From a virus, in the IMG/VR virus record IMGVR_UViG_3300048672_000619, positions 1-29,129 of that record: a stretch of 29,129 nucleotides of DNA; one strand, written 5' to 3'. Both the position numbers and the translations under genes were made by a program. This document shows positions 1,953-8,134 of this stretch, in pieces. A model generated the notes under the pieces. That model had not been told where the DNA came from and ran no database searches. It worked only from the letters and a program-made list of their open reading frames with translations. The stretch's first letter is position 1, and each line of letters starts with the position of its first letter.

Positions 1953-2534
1953 ATGAGTTTCGACGGGACAAAATGGTCAGATGATCGAACGGAGCTTGCA
2001 CGGAAGCTCTGGCGCGAAGGTCTCAGCGCAAATCAGATCGCAGCCCGGCTTGGTGGGGTCACGCGAAACGCGGTGATCGGTAAATTAGATCGGATTGGAG
2101 AGTCCGGGCGCGTGACGCCATCGCGGAATTTTGGCATCAAACGCGCGAAGACGCCGCGGTCGCGAAAGGTGAAGCCCCCCCAGATGGCAACCGTTCGCAG
2201 CGTGTTGACCGGGTTTTCACCGCTACGGATGGTCAAGGCCCCCGAGCCGCTGCAAGAGTACGAAGAACTGTTCATCCCGCTTGAGGATCGCAAGGGCGTT
2301 CTTGATCTCAAAGGGACAGATTGCCGGTGGCCGATCGGTGACCCGCAACATGCAGACTTCCATTTCTGCGGTCATCCGCAAGCTCGCGGCATCTCCTACT
2401 GCGCTCACCATGCGCAACGGGCCTATCAGGCCCCAAAGACAGCCCACTACATCCCCAACACGTATTTCAAGCCTGGACCGCCGAAGGAAGGCCCGGAGGC
2501 GATTCTTGAGATCCTTCGCACGAAGGCCGCCTGA
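1953..2534 (+). CDS. gcrA: GcrA-family cell-cycle transcription regulator
   Basis: A 193-aa GcrA homologue. The N-terminal helix-turn-helix (about residues 8-48) carries the family signature WREGLSANQIAARLGG followed by VTRNAVIGK. A basic Pro-rich linker follows. The C-terminal block (about 122-160) has the GcrA pattern CRWPIGDP, FHFCGHP, YCAHHAQRAYQ, the region known in the family to contact sigma-70. In Caulobacter and relatives GcrA binds methylated GANTC sites and boosts sigma-70 promoters. The start ATG at 1953 has AGGAGG at 1943-1948; an upstream extension to 1854 would run through the attenuator. It is the first rightward early gene, so it is placed to reprogramme host or later phage promoters. 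Family assignment is firm; the target promoters are inference. Confidence 0.93.
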   Translation: MSFDGTKWSDDRTELARKLWREGLSANQIAARLGGVTRNAVIGKLDRIGESGRVTPSRNFGIKRAKTPRSRKVKPPQMATVRSVLTGFSPLRMVKAPEPLQEYEELFIPLEDRKGVLDLKGTDCRWPIGDPQHADFHFCGHPQARGISYCAHHAQRAYQAPKTAHYIPNTYFKPGPPKEGPEAILEILRTKAA

Positions 2535-2541
2535 ACAAACA

Positions 2542-2577
2542 ACGGCCTCCACCGGAGGCACCCGTGGAGGCCGTTTT
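2542..2577 (+). terminator. hairpin terminator after gcrA
   Basis: A perfect 11-bp stem (2542-2552 with 2564-2574, ACGGCCTCCAC and its complement) has an 11-base loop. The tract after it is only four T, so it may be a partial or regulated terminator. It separates gcrA from the replication genes. Confidence 0.6.
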
Positions 2578-2621
2578 GAAGTGTGCGAACGCGAAACTGA
2601 CGCAAACTCGATGGTGTCACC

Positions 2622-2666
2622 ATGAACCTCATTCATGACGATTTTTGGGCGGGGCCAGCCAAATGA
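2622..2666 (+). CDS. possible 14-aa leader peptide
   Basis: ATG at 2622 opens MNLIHDDFWAGPAK and stops at TGA 2664-2666, giving an ATGA overlap with the preferred start of the next gene. The next gene has no good ribosome binding site of its own, so coupled translation from this mini-ORF is plausible. Short length makes chance likely. Confidence 0.2.
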   Translation: MNLIHDDFWAGPAK

Positions 2667-3637
2667 CAGCCCTCTCCTACGTCCGAATGTATCCGACCGA
2701 TTGGCGCTCCGGCTGTATGGGGCTCTCGCTCGAGCAGCAAGGCCTCTACATCGCGATTTGCATGTTCCAGGCAGAGACAGGCCGCCGCGTCCCACTGGAC
2801 GATAGCCAGGCCGCACGCATGCTCGGCGGCATTAACGTCAATCAGTATCGAAAAGTCCTCGGTCAACTCGTCATCAAAGGCAAGGTGAAGCGGCATGAAG
2901 ACGGATACGGCAACGACCGCATCGAACTCGAAACCAAAGCGGCACAAAGCGCTGCCCGGAAGCGTCCCACCGAGACCGAAGACAGCCCCGATGGGGAAGC
3001 CGATCAGGACGAAGGACGGCAAGGTGATGAGATTCCCCTAACAGGGACACCCCCAGCTACCCCCATAGTTACTGGGGTAGTTACCCCCCCAGTCCAGGTA
3101 GATTTTAGCGAGCAAAATCAAAGCCGTCTTATAGAGCCAGTAGCCAGTAATAAAGAAAGAAAGAAAGAGGAACCTAACGGTTCCTTGTCGAATTCGGAAA
3201 ATTCGACGTTGCCGACCGAAAGTGCCGACGAGGCTTTGCCGTCGATCGAGAGAACACCAGCCCAGCCGATCATGCAGGCCTTCGAAGCCTACCTCTCGGC
3301 AGCCCTGCCTCTCGGTCTGGCTCAACCGAGGACGCTCACCCCAGCCCTCCGAAAATCAATCGGAGCCCGTCTTCGGGAGCACGAGTTCGACGGATGGACC
3401 GACATGCTGGCAGCCGTCGCCGTCTCGGATTTCCTGACCGGCAAAAACGAACGGGGTTGGCGCGCTGATCTGCACTGGATCGTCAAGCCCGAGAATTTTT
3501 CGAAGATCCTATCCGGCAAGTACGACAACCGTGATGTTTCCGTGGAGTACCGCAATGTCCAACCTTCCCGCTTCCAGCAACACCCGATCCACGCCGCTCT
3601 CGACGCCCTACGGGACCGTTTCGAACCAATCAATTGA
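2663..3637 (+). CDS. DUF1376 replication-initiator-like protein
   Basis: A 324-aa protein. Residues about 1-75 are a DUF1376 (YdaU-type) winged-helix-like domain: YVRMYPTDWRSGCMGLSLEQQ followed by LYIAICMFQAETGRRVP. Residues about 90-190 are a low-complexity Pro/Thr/Glu linker. The C-terminal part (about 200-324) ends with the pattern WRADLHWIVKPENFSKILSGKYD, found in phage replication proteins related to DnaT or lambda-O-type initiators. It probably starts phage DNA replication or loads a helicase. The start is either ATG 2663 (ATGA overlap with a mini-ORF) or TTG 2645; I prefer ATG. It is followed by an overlapping gene, consistent with a replication pair. Domain call is good; the exact role is inference. 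Confidence 0.75.
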   Translation: MTALSYVRMYPTDWRSGCMGLSLEQQGLYIAICMFQAETGRRVPLDDSQAARMLGGINVNQYRKVLGQLVIKGKVKRHEDGYGNDRIELETKAAQSAARKRPTETEDSPDGEADQDEGRQGDEIPLTGTPPATPIVTGVVTPPVQVDFSEQNQSRLIEPVASNKERKKEEPNGSLSNSENSTLPTESADEALPSIERTPAQPIMQAFEAYLSAALPLGLAQPRTLTPALRKSIGARLREHEFDGWTDMLAAVAVSDFLTGKNERGWRADLHWIVKPENFSKILSGKYDNRDVSVEYRNVQPSRFQQHPIHAALDALRDRFEPIN

Positions 3638-4115
3638 AACGGTCATGGACGCCGCGATCCGCTACGCAACGGACCTCGACGATGCCCCCTGCAAGGCCAT
3701 CATTTCGTTGAACGAAGATATCACCAAGGGTCGCAAATGCTCGCCACAAGGCGCAACCGAGTACGCCAGCCGGATCATCGGCTGCTATCGGGCCCGCGAT
3801 TGGGTCGACCCGCAAATCTTCACGATGGCGCTCGTGGCCGTCTTAGTCGATCGGCACCCAGCGGTTGTTGCCATGGCCGCCGATCCGGTGCGCGGCATTG
3901 CTCGCAAGTACAAGTTCGCGCCCTCGCTCTCCGAGGTGGCCGACGAACTCGACGCGATCGAAAAGCGACTGAGTTTGGCCGCCTATGGAGCCAGGCAATT
4001 GCTGGCACGGACGCCGCGTCCAGACGATCCGCTCGAACCGACACGCGAGATTACCGACCAACGCATGAAGGCCTTTATCGACCAAACCGTCGCGGGTTGG
4101 AAGGAGAAGGCATGA
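3555..4115 (+). CDS. early protein of unknown function, replication neighbour
   Basis: A 186-aa soluble protein with no family I can name. The first 30 residues are Ser/Thr/Pro-rich. The rest is helical with an FTMALVAVLVDRHPAVVAMAADP segment, then SLSEVADELDAIEKRL and a tail of charged helix. The ATG at 3555 has GGAG seven bases upstream and overlaps the DUF1376 gene by 83 bases in another frame. An alternative ATG at 3645, just after the upstream stop, would give 156 aa without a clear ribosome binding site. Position beside a DUF1376 protein suggests a replication accessory (helicase loader or similar), by context only. Its stop overlaps the next ATG. Confidence 0.65.
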   Translation: MSNLPASSNTRSTPLSTPYGTVSNQSIETVMDAAIRYATDLDDAPCKAIISLNEDITKGRKCSPQGATEYASRIIGCYRARDWVDPQIFTMALVAVLVDRHPAVVAMAADPVRGIARKYKFAPSLSEVADELDAIEKRLSLAAYGARQLLARTPRPDDPLEPTREITDQRMKAFIDQTVAGWKEKA

Positions 4116-4300
4116 ACGAGATCAAGCGGGCGAACGCAGAACTTCTGATGAAGCGCTTTCGCGAGAACATGGCCGCTTCAGAGGCCGCAACTAAGCCGAC
4201 GGATTCCACGAAGTTCATGACGCGAGACGAGTTTCTGGACATGCAGAGGCGGAGCAAAAACTACCATCTGCATATCGATCCCAGGAGGCTTCCGCGATGA
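4112..4300 (+). CDS. 62-aa hypothetical early protein
   Basis: A small, charged, mostly helical protein (MNEIKRANAELLMKRFRENM at the start, FMTRDEFLDMQRRSKNYH in the middle). ATG at 4112 overlaps the upstream stop (ATGA), with AAGGAG about six bases before it. It is followed by another ATGA overlap at 4297. No family recognised. The gene order implies co-translation with the replication-associated pair. Confidence 0.7.
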   Translation: MNEIKRANAELLMKRFRENMAASEAATKPTDSTKFMTRDEFLDMQRRSKNYHLHIDPRRLPR

Positions 4301-4461
4301 AATCGACCGGCCCCAAGCTCTGCCTCGATTGCCAAACCGAGATCCTTCAAATCCGAAAATGCTGTTGGGATTGCTCTCGAAGGAAACAAGCAGCCGATGC
4401 CGCTGAAAGATCCAGGCTGAGACGCCTTGCAAGGCGTGAGGAAGGGGAGGGGGCGAGATGA
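4297..4461 (+). CDS. 54-aa zinc-ribbon-like protein
   Basis: A short basic protein with two CxxC knuckles, C9-x2-C12 and C23-x2-C26 (CLDC and CWDC), and an Arg-rich C-terminal helix. Four cysteines in this spacing suggest a zinc ribbon, and the basic tail suggests nucleic-acid binding. It overlaps both neighbours by ATGA, and AGGAGG lies upstream near 4282-4287. No named family; the metal binding is inferred from the motif alone. Confidence 0.65.
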   Translation: MKSTGPKLCLDCQTEILQIRKCCWDCSRRKQAADAAERSRLRRLARREEGEGAR

Positions 4462-4601
4462 CCTTTTTCCATTACGTGCCTCACGACAAGATCGAGGCCT
4501 TTATCGCTCAAGGATGGGTGATCGTTTCAAGGCTCGAGAATACACCACACGGGTTTTATGCCGTGTTCATGAAATGGGAGGGGCAAGGTGAGCCAAGCTA
4601 G
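4458..4601 (+). CDS. 47-aa hypothetical protein
   Basis: A small protein (MTFFHYVPHDKIEAFIAQGW at the start, then a short beta-rich end HGFYAVFMKWEG). ATG at 4458 overlaps the upstream stop. A GGGGAGGGGG tract just before it is a strong ribosome binding site. Its 3' end overlaps the methylase start by 14 bases. The EAFIAQGWVIVSRLENTPHG pattern resembles small phage proteins found beside other early genes, but I cannot name a function. Confidence 0.65.
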   Translation: MTFFHYVPHDKIEAFIAQGWVIVSRLENTPHGFYAVFMKWEGQGEPS

Positions 4602-5577
4602 TTTGCGCGCCCCGTTTCCGTGGTTCGGTGGGAAATCGTCGGTGGCTGAAATCATCTGGCAACGGCTGGGCAATGTCACGAATTATGTCGAGCCGTTCTT
4701 TGGCTCCGGCGCGGTCATGCTTGCCAATCCGAACGACTGCAAAACCGAAACAATCAATGACGCCGATCATTACGTTGCCAATTTCTGGAGGGCGACGCAA
4801 GCCGATCCTGAAAAGGTTTCATATTACGCAAATTGGCCGGTGAATGAAGCAGATTTGCACGCCCGTCATTGGTGGCTGATAACGGAAGGCAAGGCACGAC
4901 TGCATGACCTGATGATTTCTACGGGTGGCTATTGCCCTGAGGTTGCTGGGGTCTGGCTGTGGGGAACATGCTCATGGATCGGGTCGGGGTTCTGCTCAGG
5001 AAAAGGCCCATGGCAATTGGGCGCTTCCGGTTGGTGCAAGGAAGGCGATGACGACGGCAACGCCGGGAGGGGCATCAACCGGCAGCTCCCGCACCTTGGC
5101 ACCGCCGGGAGGGGCCAATTCATCCTCGATTGGGTCTCTGCCCTCTCACATCGCTTGCGCGACGTGCGCGTGTGCTGCGGAGACTGGTCACGGGTGACGG
5201 GCCCAAGCGTCACGCATCGGCATGGGATGACGGGTGTGTTTCTCGACCCACCCTATGCGGACACAGCGGGTCGAACGGCGGACCTGTACGCAACCGATAG
5301 CCTCGATGTTGCGCATGATGTGCGCCGATGGGCGATCGAGGAAGGTAAGCACCCTTTGATGCGGATTTGCCTAGCCGGATACGAAGGCGAGCACGCCATG
5401 CCGGACGATTGGGAGGTTGTCGAATGGAAAGCGCAAGGCGGGTTTGGTTCTCAATCCGACACGGAAGACGGCGGCAGAGCCAATGCGAAGAAAGAGCGCC
5501 TGTGGTTTTCGCCAGCCTGCATCAAGATTGAGAAGGCGCAACGATCCTTGTTTGACATTCTGGAGTCCACCCTATGA
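4588..5577 (+). CDS. dam: D12-class DNA N6-adenine methyltransferase
   Basis: A 329-aa Dam-type methylase. Motif X is PFPWFGGKS (residues 9-17), the SAM-binding motif I is VEPFFGSGAV (about 34-43), and the catalytic motif IV is DPPY (220-223). These mark the D12 (alpha) class that transfers a methyl group to adenine N6; the recognition sequence cannot be read from the protein. The middle of the protein is Gly/Trp/Cys-rich (about 110-185), probably the target-recognition region, and departs from E. coli Dam. GTG at 4588 has GGGAGGGG before it. It could protect phage DNA from restriction or alter methyl-sensitive regulation; a link to GANTC and GcrA is attractive but unproven. Confidence 0.9.
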   Translation: MSQASLRAPFPWFGGKSSVAEIIWQRLGNVTNYVEPFFGSGAVMLANPNDCKTETINDADHYVANFWRATQADPEKVSYYANWPVNEADLHARHWWLITEGKARLHDLMISTGGYCPEVAGVWLWGTCSWIGSGFCSGKGPWQLGASGWCKEGDDDGNAGRGINRQLPHLGTAGRGQFILDWVSALSHRLRDVRVCCGDWSRVTGPSVTHRHGMTGVFLDPPYADTAGRTADLYATDSLDVAHDVRRWAIEEGKHPLMRICLAGYEGEHAMPDDWEVVEWKAQGGFGSQSDTEDGGRANAKKERLWFSPACIKIEKAQRSLFDILESTL

Positions 5578-5858
5578 CCCCCTCACCAGAGAACGAGACA
5601 ACTCGAAAACTCCGCAACTACATCGAGCGGATTGAGCGGGTTAAAGCCGAGGCGAAGGAGCTGACCGACGACATTAAGGACATCTTCGCCCAAGCCAAAT
5701 CGGACGGCTTCGACGTGAAGATCATGCGCCACGTGCTCAAGCTCAGAACGCTATCGAAAGCCGAGCGGCAAGAGGCTCAACACCTGCTCGATACCTACAT
5801 GGCCGCCGTCGATCCGCAGATGTCGTTGTTTGAGGAAAGAGTCGAGGAACCAGCATGA
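5574..5858 (+). CDS. gapR: GapR-like DUF2312 DNA-binding protein
   Basis: A 94-aa protein of the DUF2312/GapR family. The family hallmark IERVKAEAKELTDDIKDIFAQAK leads into GFDVKIMRHVLKLR and then a C-terminal helix with a LLDTYMAA motif. Length is close to the roughly 90 aa of Caulobacter GapR, a small nucleoid protein that clamps overtwisted DNA, stimulates topoisomerases and is needed for replication and cell-cycle progression. ATG at 5574 overlaps the methylase stop. In a phage it could handle supercoiling ahead of replication or interfere with host GapR. The C terminus (SLFEERVEEPA) is an extension beyond the core. Family assignment is strong; role in the phage is inferred. Confidence 0.88.
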   Translation: MTPSPENETTRKLRNYIERIERVKAEAKELTDDIKDIFAQAKSDGFDVKIMRHVLKLRTLSKAERQEAQHLLDTYMAAVDPQMSLFEERVEEPA

Positions 5859-6085
5859 CAGAATGGCGAAAAAAGTGGCGCGACTCAGCTCTAGCCGATG
5901 CCGTTTGGTCGGCAATTGTCGCATACGACGTCGAAGCTGAAAAGGCAGCCCGGAATCTATCGGACGATGCGTTGAAACGATGTGAGCAAGCGGCAGACGC
6001 AATTGACGACGCGATTGAGGCGATCATTGAGTTGGCGGTCGCCGAAGAGATCGAAGCGGCCAAACATGCGGGGAAATCCGAATGA
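5855..6085 (+). CDS. 76-aa helical hypothetical protein
   Basis: An all-helical, Ala/Glu-rich acidic protein (DAIDDAIEAIIELAVAEEIE near the end) with a basic, Trp-containing start (MTEWRKKWRD). The ATG overlaps the gapR-like stop and the 3' end overlaps the next ATG. No signal peptide or membrane segment. No family recognised; it may form a coiled-coil dimer. Confidence 0.65.
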   Translation: MTEWRKKWRDSALADAVWSAIVAYDVEAEKAARNLSDDALKRCEQAADAIDDAIEAIIELAVAEEIEAAKHAGKSE

Positions 6086-7384: not shown

Positions 7385-7420
7385 GTCCTATATTCACTGA
7401 TTCGAATCACCTGCGTTGCG
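7376..7420 (+). promoter_or_regulatory. GANTC cluster and repeated motif upstream of the porin-like gene
   Basis: Three GANTC sites occur in 33 bases: GACTC (7376-7380), GATTC (7399-7403) and GAATC (7404-7408), the last two forming the palindrome GATTCGAATC. The block CACTGATTCG is found again upstream of the tRNA-like RNA (9076-9085), and a TTGCG follows in both places. A 5-bp hairpin (GGACT/AGTCC, 7375-7388) overlaps. In Caulobacter GANTC sites methylated by CcrM are the sites recognised by GcrA, so this could be a promoter of the phage GcrA. A plausible TATATT -10 lies at 7388-7393. Confidence 0.45.
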
Positions 7421-7459: not shown

Positions 7460-8134
7460 ATGACCCGCATTTTGACGATCGCTGCTATGGCTGGCCTTGC
7501 CATCATCGCCCTAGCAGCTCCTGGACGCGCCGCCGACCTCGCCAAGCCAGCTGAACCGGCGCACGTCGCTGAAGTTCTCGCGCCCGCGCCCTTTCAGGGG
7601 CTCTATATCGGCGTTCTCGCTGGCCACGCCACAGGCCAGATCAACGACACTGAGGGATTCAAATTTCCCAGTGACGGCTACACAGGCACCGCCCTCATTG
7701 GCTACAATCACCGTGTGCCGAACGCCTCGCACATCGTCCTGGGGGCCGAAGCGGATCTCGGACTGACCGGCATCAGCGGCGGCACGAACGCGGGCGGGTT
7801 TACCGTTAGTGGCACCAACAAGGTTCTCGGCTCCATTCGCGCCCGCGCTGGCTATGCTGTCGGCTCCTCGATGATCTATGCCACGGGCGGCGTCGCGATG
7901 ACCAATTCCAAGCTCGCCGTCGAAACGATCGGCACCGACTCCGCCAACCGCCTCAACGGCTACGTGTTTGGTGGGGGCCTCGAAACCACGATTTTCGGCA
8001 ACCTCGTCACCCGCCTGGAATACCTCCGCTACCAGTGGAAGGATCAGGATTACACCATCGGCGGACAGAGCACCGGCAAGCTGGGCTCGCACAACGACAA
8101 CATCCGGGCTGGCCTCATCGTCAAGCTCAACTGA
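7460..8134 (+). CDS. Omp25/RopB-like outer-membrane beta-barrel protein
   Basis: A 224-aa secreted porin-like protein. Residues 1-24 are a signal peptide (MTRILTIAAMAGLAIIALAA, cleavage after GRAA). The mature part follows the Omp25/Omp31/RopB layout: FQGLYIGVLAGHATG first strand, GAEADLGLTG, GSIRARAGYAVGSSMIYATGGVA and a closing strand ending RAGLIVKLN. The family forms an eight-stranded barrel in rhizobia and Brucella. In a phage it is a moron, possibly changing the host surface or blocking receptors for superinfection. It has its own upstream GANTC cluster and lies alone, consistent with separate regulation. ATG at 7460 has GGAGA nearby. Confidence 0.88.
   Translation: MTRILTIAAMAGLAIIALAAPGRAADLAKPAEPAHVAEVLAPAPFQGLYIGVLAGHATGQINDTEGFKFPSDGYTGTALIGYNHRVPNASHIVLGAEADLGLTGISGGTNAGGFTVSGTNKVLGSIRARAGYAVGSSMIYATGGVAMTNSKLAVETIGTDSANRLNGYVFGGGLETTIFGNLVTRLEYLRYQWKDQDYTIGGQSTGKLGSHNDNIRAGLIVKLN

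Follow-up and report, generated by a model that had tools for sequence, protein, structure and literature searches.

The window analysed here is an entire IMG/VR virus record (IMGVR_UViG_3300048672_000619; 29,129 bases, linear ends), and the subject of this study is a set of three genes in its early region: homologues of gcrA and gapR, and an orphan adenine methylase of the Dam fold. Because the ends are linear, the genome is probably partial. The virus is probably a temperate, Sf6/P22-like podophage, and its host is probably an alphaproteobacterium. With moderate confidence, we hold that the early operon contains three separately acquired functions and not one cell-cycle module. For a specialist, the most rewarding subject is the family to which the methylase belongs, which carries an array of 14-residue repeats and matters more than the trio.

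The three genes lie in a rightward operon that begins at the gcrA ATG (1953; Shine-Dalgarno sequence AGGAGG at 1943-1948); gapR ends with its stop codon at 5858. The original prediction described an early module with all three genes inside 4 kb. The early placement is borne out, as the operon stands beside repressor and replication genes, and the coordinates (1953-5858) are right, but the three do not all stand side by side. A replication-type gene (2663-3637) and several small open reading frames (ORFs) separate gcrA from the methylase gene, and the methylase and gapR genes overlap by 4 bp.

Relatives were found through the large terminase, a gene that is neutral to the question of a module. 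Two of them, G001 (terminase 91% identical) and G003 (75%), share the gene order of the window, and the structural proteins of G001 are mostly 70-91% identical to those of the window. Each has a gcrA gene (37% identity in G001, 40% in G003) at the corresponding position behind the repressor, and neither gapR nor the D12 methylase is present in either genome. The stretch that holds the adenine methylase in the window, between the replication gene and small ORFs, carries in G001 a frame-broken gene for a C5 cytosine methylase (L006, 3790-4799), its parts lying in two frames. In a distant podophage, MW202785, gcrA precedes replisome organiser, RfaH-like and outer-membrane genes. Since the gcrA slot is kept in G001, G003 and MW202785, and gapR and the methylase are missing from G001 and G003, gcrA appears to be a lineage gene, and the other two accessory cargo.

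Joint occurrence of the three families is rare. GapR was present in one of 11 non-redundant phages with GcrA, namely Caulobacter phage DMCA, where gapR, gcrA and an N6_N4-type adenine methylase lie within 4.2 kb. Among 50 long records bearing the methylase family of the window, one has GapR and two have GcrA, and a single record has both. This IMG/VR contig (G436; L118) carries, in order within 7 kb, a repressor, gapR, a D12 methylase, an N6_N4 methylase, a RusA-like gene and gcrA. The three families thus cluster within ∼5 kb in three unrelated phages (the window, G436 and DMCA), with differing methylase classes and gene orders. Such clustering is compatible with convergence, and also with a tendency of these genes to collect in the early regions of alphaproteobacterial phages. 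Recurrence of the trio is thus rare but real: it is seen in the unrelated G436 and DMCA and not in the two nearest relatives. A conserved three-gene module is not supported, given the absence of gapR and the methylase from those relatives and co-occurrence of 1/11 and 1/50.

The family assignments made from the sequence alone were accurate. All three proteins score far above the Pfam family cut-offs, those of GcrA and GapR being exceeded four- to five-fold. All three fall short of the curated cut-offs of the NCBI models: 128.7 bits for GcrA against the host-orthologue equivalog NF050816 (curated cut-off 280), 74.3 bits for GapR (cut-off 140) and 39 bits for the methylase against the Dam model (cut-off 114.85). 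We therefore regard the proteins as family members and not as orthologues of the host regulators.

The GcrA homologue (1953-2534, + strand; 193 aa) consists of an N-terminal DNA-binding domain and a C-terminal sigma-interacting domain. It covers the entire PF07750 model (142.7 bits, cut-off 26.9, E 1.7e-41), and its nearest solved relative, Caulobacter GcrA (7ye1, E 6.4e-29), aligns over the full length with both domains. The N-terminal domain, including the TRNAVIGK recognition region, aligns to 5yiu over 43 residues (E 8e-13). The C-terminal domain aligns to residues 23-73 of 5yix, and its C.WP..C..YC..H residues are invariant in the six phage GcrAs compared. Host GcrA recruits sigma-70 RNA polymerase to GANTC-methylated promoters (PMC7403470); as both domains are intact by alignment, it is straightforward to expect that the phage protein would do the same. 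In a GcrA tree, the proteins of the window, G001, G003 and MW202785 group together weakly (84/26), the backbone is poorly supported, and the placement of the window protein is not significant.

Expression of gcrA may be controlled by its leader. A hairpin (stem 1861-1923) followed by a run of seven uridines (1924-1930) stands on the + strand directly before the gcrA ribosome-binding site. Folding of the RNA from 1840 to 1960 gave -50.6 kcal/mol (z -4.06), with none of 200 shuffles equally stable, and the hairpin arms are conserved in G001. We read this element (1861-1930) as a putative terminator or attenuator that would restrict gcrA expression until read-through. An exact search with the leader matched G001 only. 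A known riboregulator was considered and dropped, as the leader has no match in Rfam.

GANTC sites are under-represented in the window (74 observed, 106 expected) and somewhat enriched between genes (15 of the 74 sites in 11.9% of bases; p 0.026, uncorrected). A perfect palindrome, TGATTCGAATCA (7398-7409), contains two overlapping GANTC sites and is a candidate GcrA/CcrM-responsive element. It lies 50 bases upstream of a gene for a beta-barrel protein (7460-8134) and is kept at the same place in G001, though the sequence further upstream diverges. Exact searches with the palindrome matched G001 only. A link to host genomes was discarded, because it occurs in 1 of 190, the chance expectation. 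Together, the intergenic enrichment and the conserved TGATTCGAATCA make phage promoters at most plausible targets of GcrA. GATC is not avoided in the window (227 observed, 229 expected), which decides nothing on GATC specificity.

The methylase gene (4588-5577, + strand) has a GTG start. Its product matches D12 (PF02086) with 51 bits (cut-off 22), this Pfam match being confined to residues 12-77, the N-terminal portion with motifs X and I. Motif X (GGK), motif I (FxGSG; FFGSGAV in full) and motif IV (LDPPY, residues 219-223) are present, in the order X-I-target recognition domain (TRD)-IV. An AlphaFold model (predicted local distance difference test score (pLDDT) 81.5, predicted template modelling score 0.84) has the Dam fold: Z is 17.4 in comparison with E. 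coli Dam and 13.4 with T4 Dam, while other methylase folds score ∼10. No match to PF01555 (N6_N4_Mtase, beta-class) was obtained at the thresholds used. The enzyme is thus a Dam-fold DPPY protein of the D12 class and not of CcrM type, as had been predicted. The family is large: IMG/VR yielded no fewer than 559 confirmed matches, and no full-length relative was found in 385 sampled alphaproteobacterial genomes. Its orphan status, its absence from those genomes and the C5 methylase standing in its place in G001 favour a phage-borne protective or marking enzyme. There is precedent for phage mimicry of CcrM specificity: the Sinorhizobium phage methylases PhiLM21_p027, Phi2LM21_p21 and Phi3LM21_p21 have CcrM-like GANTC specificity (PMC5537653), so a regulatory role of the window enzyme stays conceivable.

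The GapR homologue (5574-5858, + strand; 94 aa) covers model positions 3-72 of 72 in PF10073 (94.4 bits, cut-off 22.6), corresponding to a complete DNA-binding domain. Seven GapR-family sequences in the PDB, 6cg8 and 6jyk among them, match it with E down to 1.2e-16. The DNA-contact residues of GapR are K34, K42, K49, K56, K59 and K66, and R65 is structural (PMC7373187). The window protein keeps four of these seven (K42, K49, K56 and R65), has one conservative change (K59R) and has lost two (K34A, K66T); the loss of K34 and K66 may reduce its affinity for DNA. Genes of this family (UPF0335) are common in phages, occurring in 142 of 50,697 phage records, mostly with alphaproteobacterial hosts and mostly annotated as hypothetical. 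In the literature searched, the only paper to name both DUF2312 and phage does not deal with phage GapR. A GapR peptide scan of IMG/VR returned 37 candidate stretches, none of which was confirmed, by a method ill-suited to short helical proteins.

Under the favoured reading of three separate functions, GcrA would be a lineage-retained early gene, placed just after the divergent repressor, where lambdoid phages keep early regulators. It would bind host RNA polymerase through sigma-70 and help to open GANTC-methylated promoters, acting on the phage itself, for instance at the element with two GANTC sites upstream of the beta-barrel gene, and perhaps on host replication genes. The methylase would mark phage DNA at a motif of its own, most likely against restriction, and relatives would swap in other methylases. 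The GapR homologue may act as a small clamp for overtwisted, AT-rich DNA that assists phage DNA replication or transcription. Several observations weigh against this account. Recurrence of the trio in two unrelated phages is explained less neatly by purely independent acquisition. The single relative recovered by a terminase scan of GTDB, in a metagenome-assembled genome of Roseovarius (L020; terminase 66%), has no gcrA in its 10 kb upstream, so the gcrA slot is not universal. The intergenic enrichment of GANTC is weak, and the statistic ignores local composition and is uncorrected for multiple looks. Furthermore, the phage GcrA may bind sigma and yet no longer read methylated GANTC, and every activity in the account is deduced, the observations being gene identity, position, fold and pattern of conservation.

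The original prediction was that the phage replaces or competes with the host programme early in infection or during induction. As a coordinated module, GcrA, the methylase, by resetting the methylation state, and GapR would jointly override the host cell cycle and impose a replication-permissive state. The family identities, the early position and the two further phages with the trio within ∼5 kb agree with it. So do the proposal that phage GcrA pushes swarmer cells into replication (PMC3556154) and the location of the Sinorhizobium phage methylases of CcrM-like GANTC specificity next to replication genes (PMC5537653). We nevertheless consider such coordination unlikely, because two members of the trio are missing from the nearest relatives, co-occurrence is confined to one in 11 and one in 50, and the methylase class changes from phage to phage (D12 in the window, D12 and N6_N4 in G436, N6_N4 in DMCA). 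The known GANTC methylases of phages also have an NPPY/F/W motif, whereas the window enzyme has DPPY. The reading of a host-cycle module is possible but not favoured. It is also improbable that the proteins are domain-level relics which kept DNA-binding folds and serve only as generic phage regulators or nucleoid proteins, with GcrA a methylation-independent, phage-specific activator and GapR histone-like. That view would fit the rapid change of gcrA in close relatives (37-40% identity, where structural genes mostly keep 70-91%), the lost lysines of GapR and the scores far below the NCBI equivalog cut-offs. Against it, both the TRNAVIGK helix that binds DNA and the Cys/His motif in the sigma domain are completely preserved.

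The methylase family has a feature of wider interest. Eighty of its viral members were kept, of which 76 could be analysed for repeats, and a 14-residue unit was found in all 76, in one to six copies. Counts from a hidden Markov model (HMM) of the repeat were seven proteins with one copy, 24 with two, 27 with three, 10 with four, five with five and three with six. The consensus is R-Q/K-L/R-P/V-H-L-G-N/D-A-G-x-G-V/I-N/H, variable mainly at positions 2, 3, 4, 8, 9 and 11. The array separates an N-terminal half that resembles Dam from the half with DPPY, at the point where the order of helices and strands in the model puts the Dam hairpin, and in Dam the hairpin at this position contacts and reads DNA. 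In the window, alignments and the repeat HMM over the 76 relatives delimit a short array of ∼1.5 units, GNAGRGIN-RQLPHLGTAGRG (5056-5115, + strand; residues 157-176), and residues 154-170 form a low-confidence loop in the AlphaFold model. An AlphaFold model of a six-repeat relative (L124) gave no structure for the repeats, with array residues 126-223 below pLDDT 50.

The array region ranges from 36 to 139 residues, with a standard deviation of 17, against 10 for the whole remainder of the protein. Units are 92% identical in DNA within one array and 66% between proteins, a signature of recent duplication. Between one locus (L075) and three others (L077, L082 and L083) the arrays differ by precisely one unit of 42 bp; the flanking sequences, compared across ∼5 kb or more, share 99.6-99.9% identity. 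Four loci from one metagenome (L103, L113, L117 and L120) are nearly identical outside the array and differ within it; their ratio of nonsynonymous to synonymous polymorphism (pN/pS) is at least 1.7 within the array and lies at 0-0.14 in the flanking sequence, the array values resting on few substitutions. Pairs outside this group are under ordinary constraint, with pN/pS of 0.09-0.4 in array and flanks alike. One of the four, L103, carries two tandem repeat-array methylase genes (3798-4867 and 5007-5948) with different arrays, and the first copy appears to be frame-broken. A diversity-generating retroelement was rejected as the source of repeat diversity, since a motif scan of the loci found no reverse-transcriptase-like ORF.

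From its position and its variation, we infer that the array probably helps to read the methylation target. A further step, which we put forward only tentatively, is that target recognition is modular: the array would replace the Dam reading hairpin, and gain, loss and recombination of units would change specificity and permit rapid escape from host restriction. If the array does set specificity, the family would offer a naturally occurring example of an exchangeable DNA-reading module within a single-chain adenine methylase. A literature search for repeat-array phage adenine methylases gave no match, most subscription papers lying outside its coverage.

The remainder of the window is organised as follows. 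The early region extends from 1.3 to 9 kb. A Cro/CI-type helix-turn-helix (HTH) repressor (1367-1759, - strand; Pfam HTH_3, 45.4 bits; NCBIfam RstR-like, 37.7 bits) diverges from the rightward operon, and related HTH genes stand at the same place in G001. The temperate lifestyle is suggested by this repressor and by the tandem HTH repressors and the serine-recombinase gene, at the contig edge, of G001. The operon runs in the order gcrA, replication-initiation-like gene, small ORFs, methylase, gapR, further small ORFs, beta-barrel protein and NusG/RfaH-like antiterminator. The second of these (2663-3637, + strand) encodes a replication initiation or helicase loader-like protein (PHROG 19658, 10469, 345 and 5810) with a DUF1376 N-terminus that scores 29.3 bits, slightly below the 30.1 cut-off. 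It is followed by an ORF for an unknown protein (3645-4115, + strand) with no Pfam, PHROG or NCBIfam match. The phage antiterminator (8539-9045) lies ahead of the late genes and could act on the late operon or on the gcrA leader terminator. Structural genes fill the window from ∼10 to 29 kb: an Sf6-type small terminase, the large terminase, a head-tail adaptor, the major head protein and tail proteins. At the left end, positions 117-526 hold a 410-base low-complexity array of GCCGTA/GCCGTC/GCCGGA hexamers, with 34 copies of a 12-base period. It is open on both strands, encoding Val-Ala/Gly-Ala one way and Gly-Tyr-Gly-Asp the other, and the corresponding left arm of G001 has a pentapeptide-repeat gene.

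GcrA in phages has been on record since 2012, and GapR-family proteins and orphan methylases are likewise familiar or widespread, so the trio extends what is known of phage biology only modestly. It sharpens the question of whether phage GcrA is used on the phage's own promoters or on those of the host. The window GcrA shares a Pfam family with GcrA of Caulobacter crescentus and of phiCbK-like phages (gp222), and both the DNA-binding and the sigma-70-binding domains align. It is 33% identical to the phiCbK proteins, falls on a separate branch and, unlike them, sits in a small, probably temperate podophage in the position of an early regulator. The GcrA of phiCbK-like phages has been proposed to alter the replicative state of the host (PMC3556154). 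Compared with the nucleoid-associated protein GapR (UPF0335/DUF2312), the window homologue has the whole DNA-binding domain and four of the seven listed residues identical, but lacks two contact lysines. The Sinorhizobium phage GANTC methylases and the window enzyme are alike adenine methylases encoded next to replication genes in phages of alphaproteobacteria, the former being described as NPPY/F/W (PMC5537653) and the latter belonging to the Dam-fold DPPY class. T4 Dam and similar D12 orphan phage methylases share the motif order X-I-TRD-IV, DPPY and the Dam fold with the window enzyme; unlike them, its family has the array of 14-residue units, one to six copies in relatives, where Dam has the hairpin that reads DNA. 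In Type I restriction specificity subunits, TAEL is a four-residue spacer between two recognition domains. These subunits, with their variable TAEL repeats, similarly show in-frame change of repeat number in a DNA-reading protein, whereas the repeat of the methylase family is a 14-residue unit inside a Dam-fold methylase.

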